Below, piece by piece: positions 3,011 to 24,416 of a DNA stretch of 64,000 nucleotides. This DNA is from a virus. The notes under the pieces are model-generated. The model did no database searches. It was not told the origin of the DNA and saw only the letters and a program-made list of their open reading frames with translations. Every line of letters starts with the position of its first letter. Within the stretch, counting starts at the first letter, position 1. The position numbers and the translations under genes were made by a program. The stretch spans positions 1-64,000 of the IMG/VR virus record IMGVR_UViG_3300030105_002498; one strand, written 5' to 3'.

Positions 3011-3033
3011 AAAAAACACCCTTAAAAGGGTGC
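3011..3033 (-). terminator. Rho-independent terminator
   Basis: On the minus strand a CACCC/GGGTG hairpin with a 6-nt loop is followed by six Ts. It overlaps the last codons of the 300-aa gene and would end the leftward ubiquitin-like cassette transcript. The stem is only 5 bp, so strength is uncertain. Confidence 0.6.
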
Positions 3034-3924
3034 TTCATCTGTGCTATATATTGGGTTTGTGCTCGATATAGAATCAAGTTCTCTGTACCCCATTCCAGAA
3101 GGAGATATAATGAATACTGGTTCTTCAGTTGCATTTTCTGTATCATCAATTATGCGATAACTTAAAGGATAAGCAAGGCAATCTCTACCTCTGTAGATGT
3201 CTTCCAACTCTGTCCCTCCATGTGTATCAAAGATTCCAAAAAGCTCTGAAATATTATTTCCAAGGAGTTTATTTAACCCGTTAAATTTCTCGTTTAGTTC
3301 AGTAACAGAGTTAAAGTCTACGTTAAACCCTGTATTGTAACAGTCTTTCTCAATTCTCTCTGAAGTAGTAATTTCTACAGGGACTTTATTGTGGTAGCAA
3401 TAAGGAATGTACCTATCTTTAAGGATTTCCCAAAGCTCCGAATATTTCTCTGCTGTAAAAATCTCTGAAGAAAGAAATAATTTTAAATGTGAATGATTGA
3501 TAACTCTTCGTCTTCGTACACCACTATTCTCAATAAGATTCTCAAAAGAATCTGTAGCTAACAATAAAAGTATATTATCGTTTTCATCAGCTATATAGCC
3601 TCTACAAACAGTAAGTCTATAATCATCACAACGGTAAATTTTAAGTTTATTCTCATCTGTAAGTTGCTCTAAAAATTCAGCAGGTCTAGATATACTATGG
3701 TAACTGTGTATATCCTTCATTACATTTTTAGGTCTACAGTATGAATAGACATTTCCTGCAATCTGCTCATAAAAACTTTTCCGACTTTCTGAAGGTTCAA
3801 ATATCCCTGTAGGTACATAACTGGGAAACCATTTGTTAGCTGCTGTAGTTGCCATCTTATCTTGATTAATTTGCATTCTTCCAGACTGACTTAAATAAAT
3901 TATACTAGATATGACATTATTCAT
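3022..3924 (-). CDS. Unknown protein, last gene of the ubiquitin-like cassette
   Basis: 300 aa, no family recognised with certainty. It has a conserved-looking hydrophobic core (RLTVCRGYIADENDNILLLLATD) and several cysteines near residues 60-120, then an INHSHLKLF segment. The start overlaps the E1-like gene stop by 4 nt (ATGA), and a terminator follows at once, so it is the distal gene of the E2/JAMM/E1 cassette. In the bacterial PRTRC cassettes, ubiquitin-like, E2-like, JAB and ThiF proteins travel with further partners of unknown role; this may be such a partner or a target-recruiting factor. That is inference from context only. Confidence 0.75.
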   Translation of the reverse strand: MNNVISSIIYLSQSGRMQINQDKMATTAANKWFPSYVPTGIFEPSESRKSFYEQIAGNVYSYCRPKNVMKDIHSYHSISRPAEFLEQLTDENKLKIYRCDDYRLTVCRGYIADENDNILLLLATDSFENLIENSGVRRRRVINHSHLKLFLSSEIFTAEKYSELWEILKDRYIPYCYHNKVPVEITTSERIEKDCYNTGFNVDFNSVTELNEKFNGLNKLLGNNISELFGIFDTHGGTELEDIYRGRDCLAYPLSYRIIDDTENATEEPVFIISPSGMGYRELDSISSTNPIYSTDEAPF

Positions 3925-4610
3925 GATTGTATTTCAGTTAAAGTTACAGGAATAAAAAATTCATAAAAGAAAGGGACATCTCTGACATACTCTCTTTCAT
4001 AAATGTTTGTAATATGGTTTGTGAAGAAACCTAGCATGTGAGAAGCAATCATAGCAGCACTATGAGTTGTCTGCTTCAAAGTACATGGAGCATCTTCTAC
4101 ATCTCCATCAGAAAACAAGTGTTCTCTCTCATACTCATCCATATTATCTGGAGTAACACAAAAGATTTGCAATTGTTCCATAGTTAATCTTCCATCAATG
4201 AAGATAGGAGTTACAGGACAATTCTTATGACTCTTTTTCCATACATTAAATAGGTCTGTCCTTGCTTTCATGTTATCGAAAGCAGAGAAGATAAAATAAT
4301 GTGTTGGAGAATTAAGGTCAATCTTCTTATTAAATATGTTAATACTCATCCCACAAAAACTTTTAACAATATTAAAGATGGCATCCACTTTAAAGCTTCC
4401 AATATCCTCTTTTCTGAAAAGTTGTCCTCCAATGTTATGAGCTTCAATAGTATCAAAATCATATACCATAGGCTTGATATTTGCCCTGGAACAAAAGAAA
4501 GCTAACCAACTTCCAATCCCACCTGCCCCCCCAATGAGGACAGATTCAGGATTATCTGTATTAAACCAAGGTGCTCCTTTAAAACGACTGTGTTGTGTAC
4601 TTACTGGCAT
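3921..4610 (-). CDS. E1/ThiF-like activating enzyme
   Basis: Residues 23-35 (SVLIGGAGGIGSW) form the glycine-rich Rossmann loop of the ThiF/MoeB/E1 superfamily. Asp51/Asp53 in MVYDFDTIE, the N-x-GGQLFR segment at 59-66, Lys74 and SAFDNMKAR at 109-117 match the ATP-binding and adenylation positions. Cys176 in APCTLKQTTH lies where E1 enzymes carry a catalytic cysteine. These enzymes adenylate the C-terminus of a ubiquitin-like protein and may pass it on as a thioester. At 229 aa it is a minimal E1. It overlaps the JAMM gene by 10 nt and is followed by the 300-aa unknown. Confidence 0.85.
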   Translation of the reverse strand: MPVSTQHSRFKGAPWFNTDNPESVLIGGAGGIGSWLAFFCSRANIKPMVYDFDTIEAHNIGGQLFRKEDIGSFKVDAIFNIVKSFCGMSINIFNKKIDLNSPTHYFIFSAFDNMKARTDLFNVWKKSHKNCPVTPIFIDGRLTMEQLQIFCVTPDNMDEYEREHLFSDGDVEDAPCTLKQTTHSAAMIASHMLGFFTNHITNIYEREYVRDVPFFYEFFIPVTLTEIQS

Positions 4611-5722
4611 TTTTCTTTTTTAATTATCTCTTCGCAGAGAAATGAAGTAATAGATTTAATAAATGGGTAATCTTTCTCAAAGCTTTCTAAAATTTCCATA
4701 GCTTCTTCCATAATGGTGATATATTCTCGCTCTCCTTTTGCATTTGGAAAATGCAATTGAATAACAGGAACAATATCTGCAAGCAACTCTACAACAAATA
4801 CTGGTAAAGAAGCATCATCTACGTCTTCCCAATAGAATGCTAATTCTTGAATAGCAGTTTCAACCTCAAACACAACTATATCAGCAGGTTTTCCAAATCT
4901 TAACATATAGATCAAGAACTCCTCTATCTCCTCTGTCCTAGGTTGTGCTTTACTTACAACTCCATAGAAAGCTTGTTTTTTTGGATTACCCTTGGGTTTT
5001 TTCTTTTTAGAACTAGTCTTAGGCAACTTTTTATAATAAGAATTACCTTGATTTGGATTCCAACCTTTATTTACAAAAGGTTTTGACGTTTTAGTTTTAG
5101 CTATAACTGCTTTCTCAATAATTCCTCTTACTCCTTCTGCAAAATCCACATCTACACTAATTTCTTCTTGTGGTGTTTCAAGTCCACAATCATAAACAGC
5201 TACAACTTCTCTTTTGAGCGTATAAACTTGATCTTTAATACTGTAACTGTCTCCTTCATCATTAGTAGCTTCAAAAGAAACTGGAACTTCTACTTCCACT
5301 TTTGCATGAACTGCAACTTTAGCTGTAAATTCCATGAAATTATTAACTATCAAAGAAAGATAATAATTGTGAGATGGAGAGTTATCTTCTAATTCTTCTG
5401 TATCTGTATTTGAAAAATAAACAGCCATAGTATTGTGACTATGGATATGTCCAATTTTCCAGTCCATTGCTTCAGGTTTATTCATCACATAATCAATATG
5501 CTTATCATCATAACCTGAAGTATCTCTTTTCTTTTCATTGAAACTGTACTCTGTGTAGACCTGGCTACCTTTGTGCATAGGAATGATGTCTTGAAGAGTT
5601 ATCACCATCTCAGTTGGATTAGTGATACTTCCAGAAACACTATAAAGTAAAATACCAGACCATTCTACTTTATTTATTGCACGACATAAGTATTTAATCT
5701 TATTTAGAACCTCTTCAGGCAT
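4601..5722 (-). CDS. JAMM/MPN (Prok-JAB) metallopeptidase with C-terminal extension
   Basis: I choose the methionine at 5722: it gives an 8-nt ATG/TGA overlap with the upstream gene, while an earlier ATG at 5794 would overlap by 80 nt. From this start, Glu20 (VEWSGILLY) and the motif H94-S-H96, seven residues, S104, two residues, D107 form a complete JAMM zinc site (GHIHSHNTM...FSNTD). Such enzymes cleave isopeptide bonds or process ubiquitin-like precursors. A lysine-rich linker near residues 225-250 joins a C-terminal helical domain of about 110 aa. Neighbours are E2-like (upstream) and E1 (downstream). Confidence 0.88.
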   Translation of the reverse strand: MPEEVLNKIKYLCRAINKVEWSGILLYSVSGSITNPTEMVITLQDIIPMHKGSQVYTEYSFNEKKRDTSGYDDKHIDYVMNKPEAMDWKIGHIHSHNTMAVYFSNTDTEELEDNSPSHNYYLSLIVNNFMEFTAKVAVHAKVEVEVPVSFEATNDEGDSYSIKDQVYTLKREVVAVYDCGLETPQEEISVDVDFAEGVRGIIEKAVIAKTKTSKPFVNKGWNPNQGNSYYKKLPKTSSKKKKPKGNPKKQAFYGVVSKAQPRTEEIEEFLIYMLRFGKPADIVVFEVETAIQELAFYWEDVDDASLPVFVVELLADIVPVIQLHFPNAKGEREYITIMEEAMEILESFEKDYPFIKSITSFLCEEIIKKEKCQ

Positions 5723-6938
5723 TATGGTTTTGATAATAGCTGTTTGCTCCTGCAAACTGGATGCTTTTTTTGTAGAGACTTTTGGATAATTCATTAGATA
5801 TATGATTTAAAAAAACTGGATGAATAATAAAATTTATTGTATCAGGGACTTCCTCTGCTTTAAGGCTATCCACTTGCATGTAATGTTTCCTACCTTGCAT
5901 TAAAACATAAGGTCTTCCTTTCTTTCTATCAAATTCCTCTCTTAACTGGTGTTTAGATAAGTAGTTTTCAGGGTGTGTTGTCCCCATGTATTTCCCATCT
6001 ATCTTAATAGGAGAAACTAAATAGTATTTTTTTGCATGAAATGAAGCTTCGAGATTCGCTTTAATCAAATCTCCTAATGCTTCATCAGGTTGCACTTTGA
6101 ATCTATCTTTATCTACATAAAAATTTAGCTGGTCGTAGTCTCTCATGTTGTCTATCACTCTATGAGCAAATCTATCCATATCCGAAGTAGATACCTCATT
6201 TGAGTCTGAATAAGAGCCTAGAGTAATATTTTTCATATCCATGTGAGGTACACCATCAATAGATTCCCACTCTAACATACTATCAATAGTTAATAAAAGT
6301 AACATAAAGTTATTTTCATCGAACTCTGCTCTTAATAAGGCAAGTAAGTCAGATATTTCATTATCACCTAAACAAAAATTATTCAAATAAAGTTGGTCAC
6401 TCTTACTACTATGCCATGTGGGAAGATGAGAATGAGTGTATCTTGAATGCCATTCTCTAAAAGTAAGTTTACTTCGAGTACCTCTTGGTGATCTGAAATT
6501 GACAGTAAACTGGTCAAGAGTAAAACCTTCAGGTTCAATTTCCATAACAACAAATAGATTTTCAATCTTATGTTTATGGTCAAATTTATTAGTGATATGA
6601 ATTTCTGGGTAGAGTATGTTAATATGAAGACGAAATCCTTCAAAGTGGTCATGACCACTAAATTCAGGCTCACAAATTATATCCCAATTGTCTTTGTGGT
6701 GTAAGGTTAGTTGTTTCATAACTTGGTCCATGATAACCTGAAATTTTGTTGCCATATTATGGTTGTTTCTAACCCCCCTAATCAAACCTTTCATCACCAT
6801 ATTAAATAAAAAAGAAGGTTTACGAGAGCAACCAGTTTCTTGTAAACTCCTACCTATATTAAACCATTTTCTAGTTTTAGCTGCGTTATTCTGGTTATAC
6901 TCTCTATCATGGTTAAAAATTGCTGAAGTTAAGTCCAT
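5715..6938 (-). CDS. Putative E2-like conjugating protein
   Basis: 407 aa. The central region (about 90-200) has beta strands (LFVVMEIEPEGF, QFTVNFRSP) followed by YTHSHL at 167-172 and a cysteine at 189 in NNFCLGD. The order of an HxH segment before a lone Cys in a xxCLG context recalls the HPN...CL arrangement of ubiquitin E2 folds and of the bacterial Prok-E2 families. I infer E2-like activity from this and from the adjacent JAMM, E1 and Ubl-like genes; sequence alone is not proof. The first gene after the terminator at 6965, it opens the three- to four-gene leftward unit. Confidence 0.6.
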   Translation of the reverse strand: MDLTSAIFNHDREYNQNNAAKTRKWFNIGRSLQETGCSRKPSFLFNMVMKGLIRGVRNNHNMATKFQVIMDQVMKQLTLHHKDNWDIICEPEFSGHDHFEGFRLHINILYPEIHITNKFDHKHKIENLFVVMEIEPEGFTLDQFTVNFRSPRGTRSKLTFREWHSRYTHSHLPTWHSSKSDQLYLNNFCLGDNEISDLLALLRAEFDENNFMLLLLTIDSMLEWESIDGVPHMDMKNITLGSYSDSNEVSTSDMDRFAHRVIDNMRDYDQLNFYVDKDRFKVQPDEALGDLIKANLEASFHAKKYYLVSPIKIDGKYMGTTHPENYLSKHQLREEFDRKKGRPYVLMQGRKHYMQVDSLKAEEVPDTINFIIHPVFLNHISNELSKSLYKKSIQFAGANSYYQNHNA

Positions 6939-6964
6939 TATTTAAAATTTTAGAGTTAGAAAAT

Positions 6965-6997
6965 AAGAAGAGGACTTTATAAAAAAGTCCTCTTCTT
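6965..6997. terminator. Strong bidirectional terminator hairpin
   Basis: A perfect 13-bp inverted repeat (AAGAAGAGGACTT and its complement) with a 7-nt loop lies between the Ubl-like gene and the E2-like gene. On the minus strand it is followed by a T-rich stretch. It partly separates the Ubl gene from the rest of the cassette. Confidence 0.8.
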
Positions 6998-7011
6998 TTA
7001 ATTAGTTGATA

Positions 7012-7659
7012 TTAAAATCCAGCTTTGATGATATTCCAATCAGCAATTAAAGCTAATGTTTCTTCTTTATCTTCTGAAGCTTGTGCCATAGCTGTATCAA
7101 AACAAGCTTTTGCATCTTGAATCTCACGAACATAGCCAGTAGCTTCTTCGTTTCCTTCTGCAACTACTAACATAGCTTCCACTACAGCATCAAAATCCAA
7201 AGTCTCATCTTTTACGATGGCTTTAGTCATTTGCTTTACTGCACCCATAACACTATCAGATTCAGGAGCAACCCAAGCTGCAATTGCTTTTCTAAGAGCT
7301 GAAGTTCTTAGTTGAGTCCAATTTCTACCTTCTTCGATAGTTTTCAAGTGGTCTTTTAAGTCTTTTCCAAACTCTTTGATAATAGCTTTCAACTCTTTTC
7401 TTGAAGTTTCAGAACCATTAGGTAATTCAACTCCAGACTTAGTTTTAACTGGTCTCAAGAAGATTACAAAGTCCCCTTCAGGTAATACAGATAAATCATT
7501 ATCTAATCCACAACGATTAATGTTCTCTGTTGCTGCAAGAGTAGATAAATCATAACCTTCTGCTGCAACTGCACTTTTGAGTTCTCCCCAAACTTTAGCG
7601 TCACTTTGAATTTTTGTTTTGTTGCTTCCTTTAGTTGAAAAAATAGTTACTGTTCGCAT
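7012..7659 (-). CDS. Ubiquitin-like (beta-grasp) protein with helical C-terminal extension
   Basis: Residues 1-75 read as a beta-grasp: strand TVTIFST, strand KTKIQSD, helix VWGELKSAVAAEG, then LAATENI and a final strand DFVIFLRPVKTKSG. This is the order seen in the Prok_Ub (PRTRC protein C-like) families. Residues 80-215 are alanine/lysine-rich helices ending KAGF, so there is no terminal GlyGly; activation would need processing, perhaps after Gly76 or Gly82, by the JAMM enzyme. Location immediately before the E2/JAMM/E1 genes supports the assignment. It could instead be a non-conjugated beta-grasp protein. Confidence 0.65.
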   Translation of the reverse strand: MRTVTIFSTKGSNKTKIQSDAKVWGELKSAVAAEGYDLSTLAATENINRCGLDNDLSVLPEGDFVIFLRPVKTKSGVELPNGSETSRKELKAIIKEFGKDLKDHLKTIEEGRNWTQLRTSALRKAIAAWVAPESDSVMGAVKQMTKAIVKDETLDFDAVVEAMLVVAEGNEEATGYVREIQDAKACFDTAMAQASEDKEETLALIADWNIIKAGF

Positions 7660-7717: not shown

Positions 7718-8287
7718 CTATAATTCTATAGTTGGCTTCCTAAGTTTACTTAGGATTGTATTTGTAAATTCATAGGATTTGTCATCACCTGGAGCAATAA
7801 TATAATTATAGTCAGGGTGAATCGGAATCTCTTTAATCGTGGTTTTATCATAGGCTTTAGTGAAGAATGGGTTCTTGATGTAGGGAATAAAGTATTTTGT
7901 TTCTTCAGTAACACGCCAAATACAAGGTTGTAAAGAAGAGATAAAATCTATTACTCTTATACTGAAATTCATCCAGGAATATCTGTGAGTTTTAGGATTT
8001 CCAGTCTGAACAGTTAAAGCCGTAGGATAAAAAAATACTCCTTGGAGTTCTAAATTAACTCTTTGAATACTCTTTGCTAAGTCCACTCTAGGACTGCAAT
8101 TAACTTCAAGATGGAGGTCCACCACATTGATGTTAGTCAGAGGAAAATTGAACACTTGGAATATCTTGTTCTTTTGAGGTTGGTGAGAAATATTAGGAAG
8201 GACCTGTTCTTCTAGTGTTACTAGTTCTTCCAGGTATAAGGGAAGGAGAGAGTGCCAAGTTTCATGTACATCATGGATTGGTATCAT
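7718..8287 (-). CDS. Uracil-DNA glycosylase-fold protein lacking the catalytic motif
   Basis: 189 aa. Several blocks follow family-1 uracil-DNA glycosylase: IFQVFNFPLTNINVV (compare the strand before GQDPYH), GVFFYPTALTVQTG (compare LLLNTVLTV..G), RYSWMNFSIRVIDFIS (compare the W..FT..VI..I helix) and a final YEFTNTILSKL. However, where active enzymes have GQDPYH this protein has LHLEVNCSPR, and the HPSPLS loop is replaced by APGDDKS. It may bind DNA or uracil without cutting. It overlaps the primase gene by 4 nt. Its role is unknown. Confidence 0.6.
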   Translation of the reverse strand: MIPIHDVHETWHSLLPLYLEELVTLEEQVLPNISHQPQKNKIFQVFNFPLTNINVVDLHLEVNCSPRVDLAKSIQRVNLELQGVFFYPTALTVQTGNPKTHRYSWMNFSIRVIDFISSLQPCIWRVTEETKYFIPYIKNPFFTKAYDKTTIKEIPIHPDYNYIIAPGDDKSYEFTNTILSKLRKPTIEL

Positions 8288-22897: not shown

Positions 22898-22924
22898 GGA
22901 TGTTATTCCTCCATATGTATTTTG

Positions 22925-23000
22925 CATGACTGAGTGGAATCGAACCACTTTCTCTCCACCTAGAACTAAGAGCAAATTATCCAGTATATTATACAATCAC
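22925..23000 (-). tRNA. tRNA-like gene, anticodon unclear (76 nt)
   Basis: Acceptor GTGATTG pairs with CAGTCAT (7/7 with G-U pairs, extendable to 10), TA at positions 8-9, a weak D arm with the conserved A14 and GG, and a perfect T arm AGTGG/CCACT with TTCGATT loop. The anticodon arm is 19 nt rather than 17: either CTCTT/TGGAG with a 9-nt loop, or CTTAG/TGGAG with a 7-nt loop and anticodon CTA. Isotype cannot be assigned from the sequence alone. Confidence 0.6.
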
Positions 23001-23937: not shown

Positions 23938-23971
23938 TCAGGCGTGGGTTGACCTGATTTTTTGGGATTTG

Positions 23972-24416
23972 TGGAGGTGCTGGGATTTGAACCCAGGTCC
24001 AGACAATTTTCTAAAATACAAATTATACATGTTTTGCACAGAGAATTTCACTCTACACACTTGAACGTCAACCTAAGTTGTCAAGTCACGGTTATTTCTA
24101 GAAATAACAAGAGCAAAGTTTTCCACTTCACAGTTTTGGGATTCGCAATTCCCAGGGCTAACCGAAGTTAACTTCCACCATCTCATTTTTACTTCAAACA
24201 AAAATGAGAAAAAAGAATTACTATGCTGCTTCCAAAACTTGTGTTCTAGGAGATACATAGGTTGCAGTCAGTAAGTTATTCGCAATAGCGTTGCTTACCT
24301 CTGCTTTGTTAATTGTATTAGCAATTATGTTTTACTTATTAGTATTTTAGTGGTTAATAAGCTTTCCACTACATGTTTGTACATCTTCCAATTCCTGTCG
24401 ATTCCATTTCACCCCC
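23972..24416 (-). ncRNA. ssrA: tmRNA (transfer-messenger RNA)
   Basis: The 5' end GGGGGTG with ATG-GAATCGACAGG matches the start of tmRNAs, and the 3' end GGACCTGGGTTCAAATCCCAG then CACCTCC gives the T arm and acceptor strand; GGGGGTG pairs with CACCTCC (7 bp, one G-U). A reading frame at 24283-24221 encodes ANNLLTATYVSPRTQVLEAA and ends in tandem stops TAG TAA. A TCTCATTTTT/AAAAATGAGA hairpin and further stems follow. CCA is not encoded. The resume codon (GCG at 24283, or earlier) is not certain. Confidence 0.8.

Follow-up and report, generated by a model that had tools for sequence, protein, structure and literature searches.

We analyzed a 64,000-nucleotide stretch (the window) of the virus record IMGVR_UViG_3300030105_002498, a portion of that 93,330-base record, and identified a compact cassette of five genes whose products resemble the components of ubiquitin-like conjugation. 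The five adjacent open reading frames (ORFs) were packed on the minus strand from 7659 to 3022, where an earlier note on this DNA had placed them, and encoded proteins of 215, 407, 397, 229 and 300 amino acids. In the direction of the genes, these were a precursor of a ubiquitin-like protein (pro-Ubl), an E2-like protein, a JAMM peptidase, a ThiF/E1 protein and a fifth gene product (Table 1). Neighbouring ORF ends overlapped by 80 bp (E2/JAMM), 10 bp (JAMM/E1) and 4 bp (E1/fifth gene). All five proteins matched phage protein families without assigned function (PHROG families). The virus is a crAss-like phage: its major capsid protein, portal and terminase belonged to phage families common to crAss-like phages, and the capsid was closest to that of the Flavobacterium psychrophilum phages FpV4/Fpv1 (72% identity), with Crassvirales next.

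Table 1. Positions in the window of the cassette genes and of their domains and motifs, with the basis of each assignment
Feature	Position	Strand	Basis
pro-Ubl, ubiquitin-fold domain and helical C-terminal tail, 215 aa	7012..7659	-	phrog_15560 E=5e-29; AlphaFold
Mature Ubl domain, residues 1-76, end Ser75-Gly76, predicted JAMM cleavage after Gly76	7432..7659	-	conservation, structure alignment
Helical Ubl tail, residues 77-215, predicted to be cleaved off	7012..7431	-	tail length 1-252 residues in relatives; separate ORF in cr106_1
E2-like protein, 407 aa	5715..6938	-	phrog_15310 E=1e-32; AlphaFold
Probable E2-fold core, residues 60-236	6231..6761	-	AlphaFold and VIA-align; Ube2w vs residues 63-229, Z 5.4; alignment of relatives
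Conserved H169-S170-H171 of E2-like protein	6426..6434	-	H171 106/107; H169 94/106
Candidate E2 catalytic Cys189	6372..6374	-	107/107 relatives with residue there
JAMM/JAB metallopeptidase, 397 aa, C-terminal half variable	4601..5794	-	phrog_21448, phrog_16107; PADLOC JAB; PRTRC protein A profile
JAMM motif H118-S-H120-x7-S128-x2-D131	5402..5443	-	invariant in uninterrupted genes
ThiF/E1-like adenylyltransferase, 229 aa	3921..4610	-	PF00899 E=2e-13; UBA5 E=5e-12; PRTRC ThiF prob 99.3
E1 nucleotide loop G28-x-G30-G31-x-G33-S34	4509..4529	-	conservation in relatives
Candidate E1 catalytic Cys176	4083..4085	-	97/97 relatives with residue there
Fifth cassette gene, 300 aa, diverging fast	3022..3924	-	phrog_15446; same slot after E1 in relatives

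Searches with the window proteins matched 78 phage records with E1, 74 with JAMM, 69 with E2 and 34 with the Ubl, which was the least similar. The window E2 gave no match when viral contigs were scanned directly at the protein level, so IMG/VR was searched by alignment-based scans, which relied on E1 and JAMM motifs and yielded 115 relatives by E1 and 304 by JAMM. We examined 174 loci (the window and the fetched loci, some on one contig) and counted active-site residues in sets that were non-redundant at 90% identity, with ~100 sequences per protein. The order Ubl-E2-JAMM-E1, whether or not the fifth gene was recognised, was nearly universal (103 + 45 of the 174 loci), and most departures from it were contig ends or genes split by introns or endonucleases. 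No locus had entered through a Ubl or E2 query, so the invariance of residues in these two proteins is free of search bias. As a check on the two proteins that did serve as queries, E1 residues were scored in JAMM-found loci and JAMM residues in E1-found loci, and they were invariant except in intron-split or truncated genes. Overall, more than 150 retrieved phage loci shared this order, and cultured carriers among them included the Bacteroides phages crAss001 and DAC15 and the Flavobacterium phages Fpv1/FpV4, in which the genes are labelled 'thiamine biosynthesis' or 'hypothetical'. In crAss001 the cassette corresponds to gp79-gp75, annotated in that order as hypothetical, hypothetical, metalloprotease, thiamine biosynthesis protein and hypothetical, and the identical gene order was found in DAC15, Kolpuevirus, Mahstovirus, Kahnovirus, Lahndsivirus, others, and FpV4. 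The key residues were invariant although identity to the window proteins among relatives was 13-30% for E2 and 18-41% for Ubl, and the fifth-gene alignment had a mean column identity of 15%. The pace of evolution was far lower in E1 than in E2, Ubl and the fifth gene. With crAss001 as the positive control, E1, JAMM and E2 were jointly undetected in six crAss-like genomes (Suoliviridae, Intestiviridae and the Steigviridae Pamirivirus cr116_1); the cassette is inherited all-or-none in the phages checked. Because gene order and active-site residues are conserved across ~100 non-redundant phage loci, the recurrence of this gene set is not due to chance. Bacterial genomes were scanned with short exact motifs, so that absence elsewhere is no proof, and gave one match, a 3.7 kb contig of a Spirochaetia metagenome-assembled genome carrying E1, the fifth gene and an ORF similar to uracil-DNA glycosylase (UDG). 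These genes looked near those of crAss001, and we rejected the contig as a bacterial cassette; it most likely comes from a phage and ended up in the genome through binning.

The earlier note had described the first protein as a beta-grasp protein that lacks a terminal Gly pair and is expected to be processed. AlphaFold modeled residues 1-70 with a predicted local distance difference test (pLDDT) score of 94-98, followed by a low-confidence linker (~71-80) and helices beyond it. Structure alignment superposed residues 1-76 on UBX, ubiquitin, SUMO and NEDD8 (Z 8.6-9.4) and stopped at residues 75-76 of ubiquitin/NEDD8, while Foldseek gave one match below 1e-3 and a top list of mostly ubiquitin-like folds. 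Together, the model and the alignment confirm a ubiquitin (beta-grasp) fold for residues 1-76. The Gly pair is indeed absent; in its place stands an internal Gly, within Ser75-Gly76, 139 residues ahead of the stop codon. Gly76 was invariant in 101/101 non-redundant relatives and Ser75 was kept in 97/101. A sharp boundary of variability follows Gly76, as mean conservation fell from 0.62 at residues 60-76 to 0.38 at residues 77-100 and the sequence beyond was hypervariable. In three phages the ORF stopped 1, 2 or 5 residues past the Gly, giving a free-standing Ubl, and in cr106_1 an HNH endonuclease gene (L009 2020-2535) lay exactly at this point, parting the Ubl ORF, which ended in ...KKIKSGKF-stop, from an ORF for the tail. 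A weak Pfam match of the window tail to Phage_term_sma was not shared by the relatives and was set aside as chance. From the sequences we predict that the Ubl is matured through JAMM cleavage after Gly76, which places the expected processing at an invariant residue.

The peptidase carried a complete JAMM motif (E44...H118-S-H120-x7-S128-x2-D131), as the earlier note had claimed, and E44, H118, H120, S128 and D131 were invariant wherever the gene was uninterrupted. It scored below the family cut-off in Pfam, matched the PADLOC JAB model (E=1.5e-4) and the profile of PRTRC protein A, and its profile was weakly nearest CSN5 and JAMM1. Conserved catalytic motifs are a common home for introns, and in L056 (4560-6250), L087 (4290-5800) and L090 group I introns (RF00028) occupied the HxH codons of the JAMM gene; another interrupted the E1 gene of L127 (8205-9984). 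Fpv1 (L006 5725-7073) had an endonuclease-bearing insertion at the JAMM HxH site that was absent from FpV4, and the insertions of both Fpv1 and L087 held, on the opposite strand, an ORF resembling a homing endonuclease.

The fourth protein matched the ThiF family PF00899 and possessed the nucleotide loop (GxGGxGS) and the candidate Cys that had been attributed to it; G28, G30, G31, N59, Q63, K74, D112 and C176 were invariant in relatives. A PDB profile search placed UBA5 first, followed by MccB, MoeB, ThiF and Cap2, and the Rossmann adenylation domain is shared with ThiF/MoeB and UBA5-type E1 enzymes. The cassette could in principle serve a sulfur-carrier pathway, with the Ubl as a ThiS/MoaD-like thiocarboxylate donor for modification of a small molecule or of tRNA/nucleotides and the E2-like protein as the acceptor enzyme. 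Such a role is implied by the database name 'thiamine biosynthesis protein', and it would suit the single-domain E1, built as in ThiF/MoeB, the top scores of ThiF-family models in the NCBIfam search with E1 and the nucleotide-metabolism genes nearby. However, the cassette contained no rhodanese, thiamine or molybdopterin enzyme, no thiamine/molybdopterin partners were annotated in the neighbourhoods, and a JAMM peptidase and a conserved-Cys protein with a probable E2 fold were always present. Iyer et al. 2006 (PMC1779556) also argue that operons pairing E1 with JAB work differently from the pathways for thiamine and the molybdenum cofactor, in which JAB is missing. We consider a sulfur-carrier role unlikely.

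For the second protein, the AlphaFold model (pLDDT 88.6; predicted template modeling score 0.85) comprised a helix (60-81), strands (85-94, 98-116, 122-137 and 152-158), the HSH segment (169-171), Cys189 and two helices (194-204 and 208-223), which is the secondary-structure order of an E2. When 999 Foldseek-ranked chains were aligned by VIA-align, the top 50/50 rows were E2/UEV/RWD-type folds or complexes holding such a domain, among them the TSG101 UEV (Z 6.2, 136 residues) and Ube2w (Z 5.4, 116 residues). The earlier description of an E2-like protein with a lone Cys after an HxH segment agrees with the modeled fold and with the invariance of Cys189, with the correction that Cys189 is the only conserved Cys rather than the sole one. 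His169 was replaced by Gln in 10 relatives, and G191, E225, S226, G229 and P231 were conserved downstream of Cys189. Because the structural scores are modest and the sequence profiles empty, an E2/UEV/RWD-type fold is likely and we infer the catalytic E2 role of the Cys189 protein. The earlier note had set two refuting outcomes, structure predictions without beta-grasp or E2 folds and loss of JAMM/E1 residues in relatives. Neither occurred: the predictions returned a ubiquitin fold for the Ubl and, at modest scores, an E2-type fold here, and the key residues of JAMM, E1, E2 and Ubl were retained in relatives. We also weighed whether the Ubl and its tail simply form a phage protein of two domains, one of them a beta-grasp module, the Cys protein no E2, and the E1-like enzyme a modifier of other things, as MccB/PaaA are of peptides. 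The E1 profile did match MccB and PaaA too, and the E2 similarity is structural only and moderate, but an invariant Gly76 with any tail length, natural gene splits at Gly76 and an always adjacent JAMM would all be left unexplained. We regard this alternative as very unlikely.

Our analysis points to the five genes being, quite probably, a phage-owned, self-contained and reversible system of ubiquitin-like conjugation and deconjugation. The Ubl would be made as a precursor and cut by the JAMM peptidase after Gly76. E1 would then adenylate Gly76 using ATP, hold the Ubl as a thioester on Cys176 and hand it to Cys189 of the E2-like protein, from which it would be attached to lysines of target proteins, presumably via an isopeptide bond. 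JAMM may also remove the attached Ubl, and the fast divergence of the fifth protein leaves room for a role as target adaptor or as target. These enzymatic steps, their order and the isopeptide chemistry are modeled on the E1, E2 and JAMM families and on Bil, in which a precursor Ubl is processed by JAB (PMC11354881). Several observations weigh against this interpretation. In the N-x-x-R-Q motif of E1, Gly replaced Arg in 98/98 relatives while PRTRC ThiF proteins had Arg in 5/5, and because of this replacement the E1 adenylation site is not fully canonical. The Ubl has one C-terminal Gly (SG) instead of a GG pair. Weakest of all is the E2 assignment: the structural scores lay at Z 4-6 (maximum 6.2), Foldseek with the full 407-aa model gave unrelated matches alone (E > 0.4), and no significant E2 sequence match was obtained with Pfam on 73 members, with PDB profiles of the whole protein and of the core domain, or with hhalign against PRTRC protein B.

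Because ~100 distinct related viruses keep the gene set with active-site residues intact, we suggest that the phage, while infecting, operates a protein-tagging system of its own. Ubiquitin-like conjugation has recently come to be seen as a bacterial weapon against phages, and here the full cassette is on the phage side. On balance we favor the broader proposal that a large crAss-like clade, cultured gut phages included, encodes and uses a full Ubl pathway in which JAMM matures a Ubl that in mid-infection is joined to phage replication proteins or host proteins, that its E2 and Ubl families are new, and that its seat is a virus genome and not a defence operon of the host. If true, five conserved unassigned genes of abundant gut phages would gain a function, and E1-E2-Ubl-JAMM chemistry would gain a simple model contained in one operon; as crAss001 and DAC15 carry the cassette, the idea is directly testable in Bacteroides laboratory strains. 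In the open-access library searched, no text tied ubiquitin conjugation, JAB or ThiF to crAss-like phages; an earlier mention is possible in subscription papers and preprints, which were outside this scope.

The cassette adjoins primase, helicase, UDG and exonuclease genes. In crAss001, the replication, recombination and nucleotide-metabolism genes are middle genes that are on at 10-30 min (PMC8375218), and from its position the cassette is probably expressed together with the replication genes. The products gp75-79 were not among the virion proteins named in the main text of the crAss001 paper (PMC6235969). Given this replication-gene setting and the absence of the cassette products from the named virion proteins, replication or host proteins are weakly favored over virion parts as Ubl targets, although any target is a guess, and the modification of phage structural proteins suggested in the earlier note was not supported. 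The ORF beside the cassette (7718-8287, minus strand) resembled UDG weakly (NCBIfam ung E=2e-4, a score well under the cut-off).

The genes had earlier been likened to the bacterial Ubl/E2/E1/JAB cassettes, including PRTRC; the set was supported, while membership of PRTRC was rejected on the cut-offs of the PRTRC models. ThiF reached 36 of 145 bits and protein A 15.6 of 102 bits, both below the curated cut-offs, and proteins B and C gave no match. The PRTRC cassette of plasmids and integrative elements, apparently operon type 6d of Iyer et al. 2006, has the same relative order Ubl, E2, JAB, E1 (L177, L180), with an F gene between C and B that the window order lacks. The phage E1 was distantly related to PRTRC ThiF (probability 99.3, E 3.5e-20), which retains the RQ Arg missing from the phage enzyme, and the phage JAMM to PRTRC protein A (probability 64, E 6e-5). 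The C-x-G around the E2 Cys is common to both, but the PRTRC E2 has ~240 aa as against 407 aa, with no detectable relation by profile. In the PRTRC Ubl a single Gly (KG) stands at or close to the C-terminus, whereas the phage Gly stands within SG with a long tail beyond. The phage Ubl and the fifth gene were unrelated to PRTRC proteins by profile (fifth gene versus F included), and PRTRC ParB, E and F proteins were not found among the tested neighbours (the UDG-like protein, the exonuclease and the fifth gene).

The logic of Ubl, E2, JAB and E1 is also common to BilABCD and to Cap2/Cap3 of the cyclic-oligonucleotide-based antiphage signaling system (CBASS), which are host-borne whereas the present cassette is phage-borne. 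BilD is a two-domain E1 and BilA has two Ubl domains, as against one 229-aa adenylation domain and one Ubl domain in the phage; the Bil E2 has a CEHH motif, which the phage E2 lacks, having no conserved His after Cys189. Bacteria deploy Cap2/Cap3 and BilABCD against phages (PMC10097602, PMC11354881), and the cassette might only oppose these systems, chiefly by a JAMM deconjugase or a Ubl decoy. The weak similarity of E1 to PADLOC E1-E2 models and the fast divergence of Ubl, E2 and the fifth gene relative to E1 are in line with such a role. On the other hand, a decoy or deconjugase needs no invariant E1 Cys, E2 Cys or Ubl Gly of its own, and the whole conjugation machinery is kept. Counter-defence alone is highly improbable in our view, and may be a purpose of the conjugation system rather than an alternative to it.

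Among phage systems, the sections of Iyer et al. 2006 (PMC1779556) that treat bacterial operons 6a-6e and phage TAPI/TAPK do not mention any phage cassette combining E1 with E2. There, lambda-type TAPI is a Ubl followed by a C-terminal domain, and the TAPK JAB is predicted to cut after a Gly. The present cassette shares with TAPI/TAPK, as described there, the Ubl, C-terminal domain and JAB peptidase, but TAPI/TAPK are tail-assembly genes with no E1 or E2 while the cassette sits in a replication module. In the jumbo Xanthomonas phage PhiXhv-15 (L176 3817-7696), a ThiF gene is accompanied by genes for a 141-aa protein with the end ...KASGG-stop and for an 892-aa protein that has an HPH...GSLCLGS motif and is rich in Cys at its C-terminus. 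The phage JAMM profile found no JAMM in this phage, and its genes are possibly a second, separate phage Ubl/E2/E1 set.

Elsewhere in the window, the minus strand carried a phage tmRNA at 23969-24416 (RF00023, 98.8 bits) and, at 22924-23000, a predicted tRNA with a CTA anticodon. Some crAss-like phages recode TAG, and this tRNA is a possible TAG suppressor.

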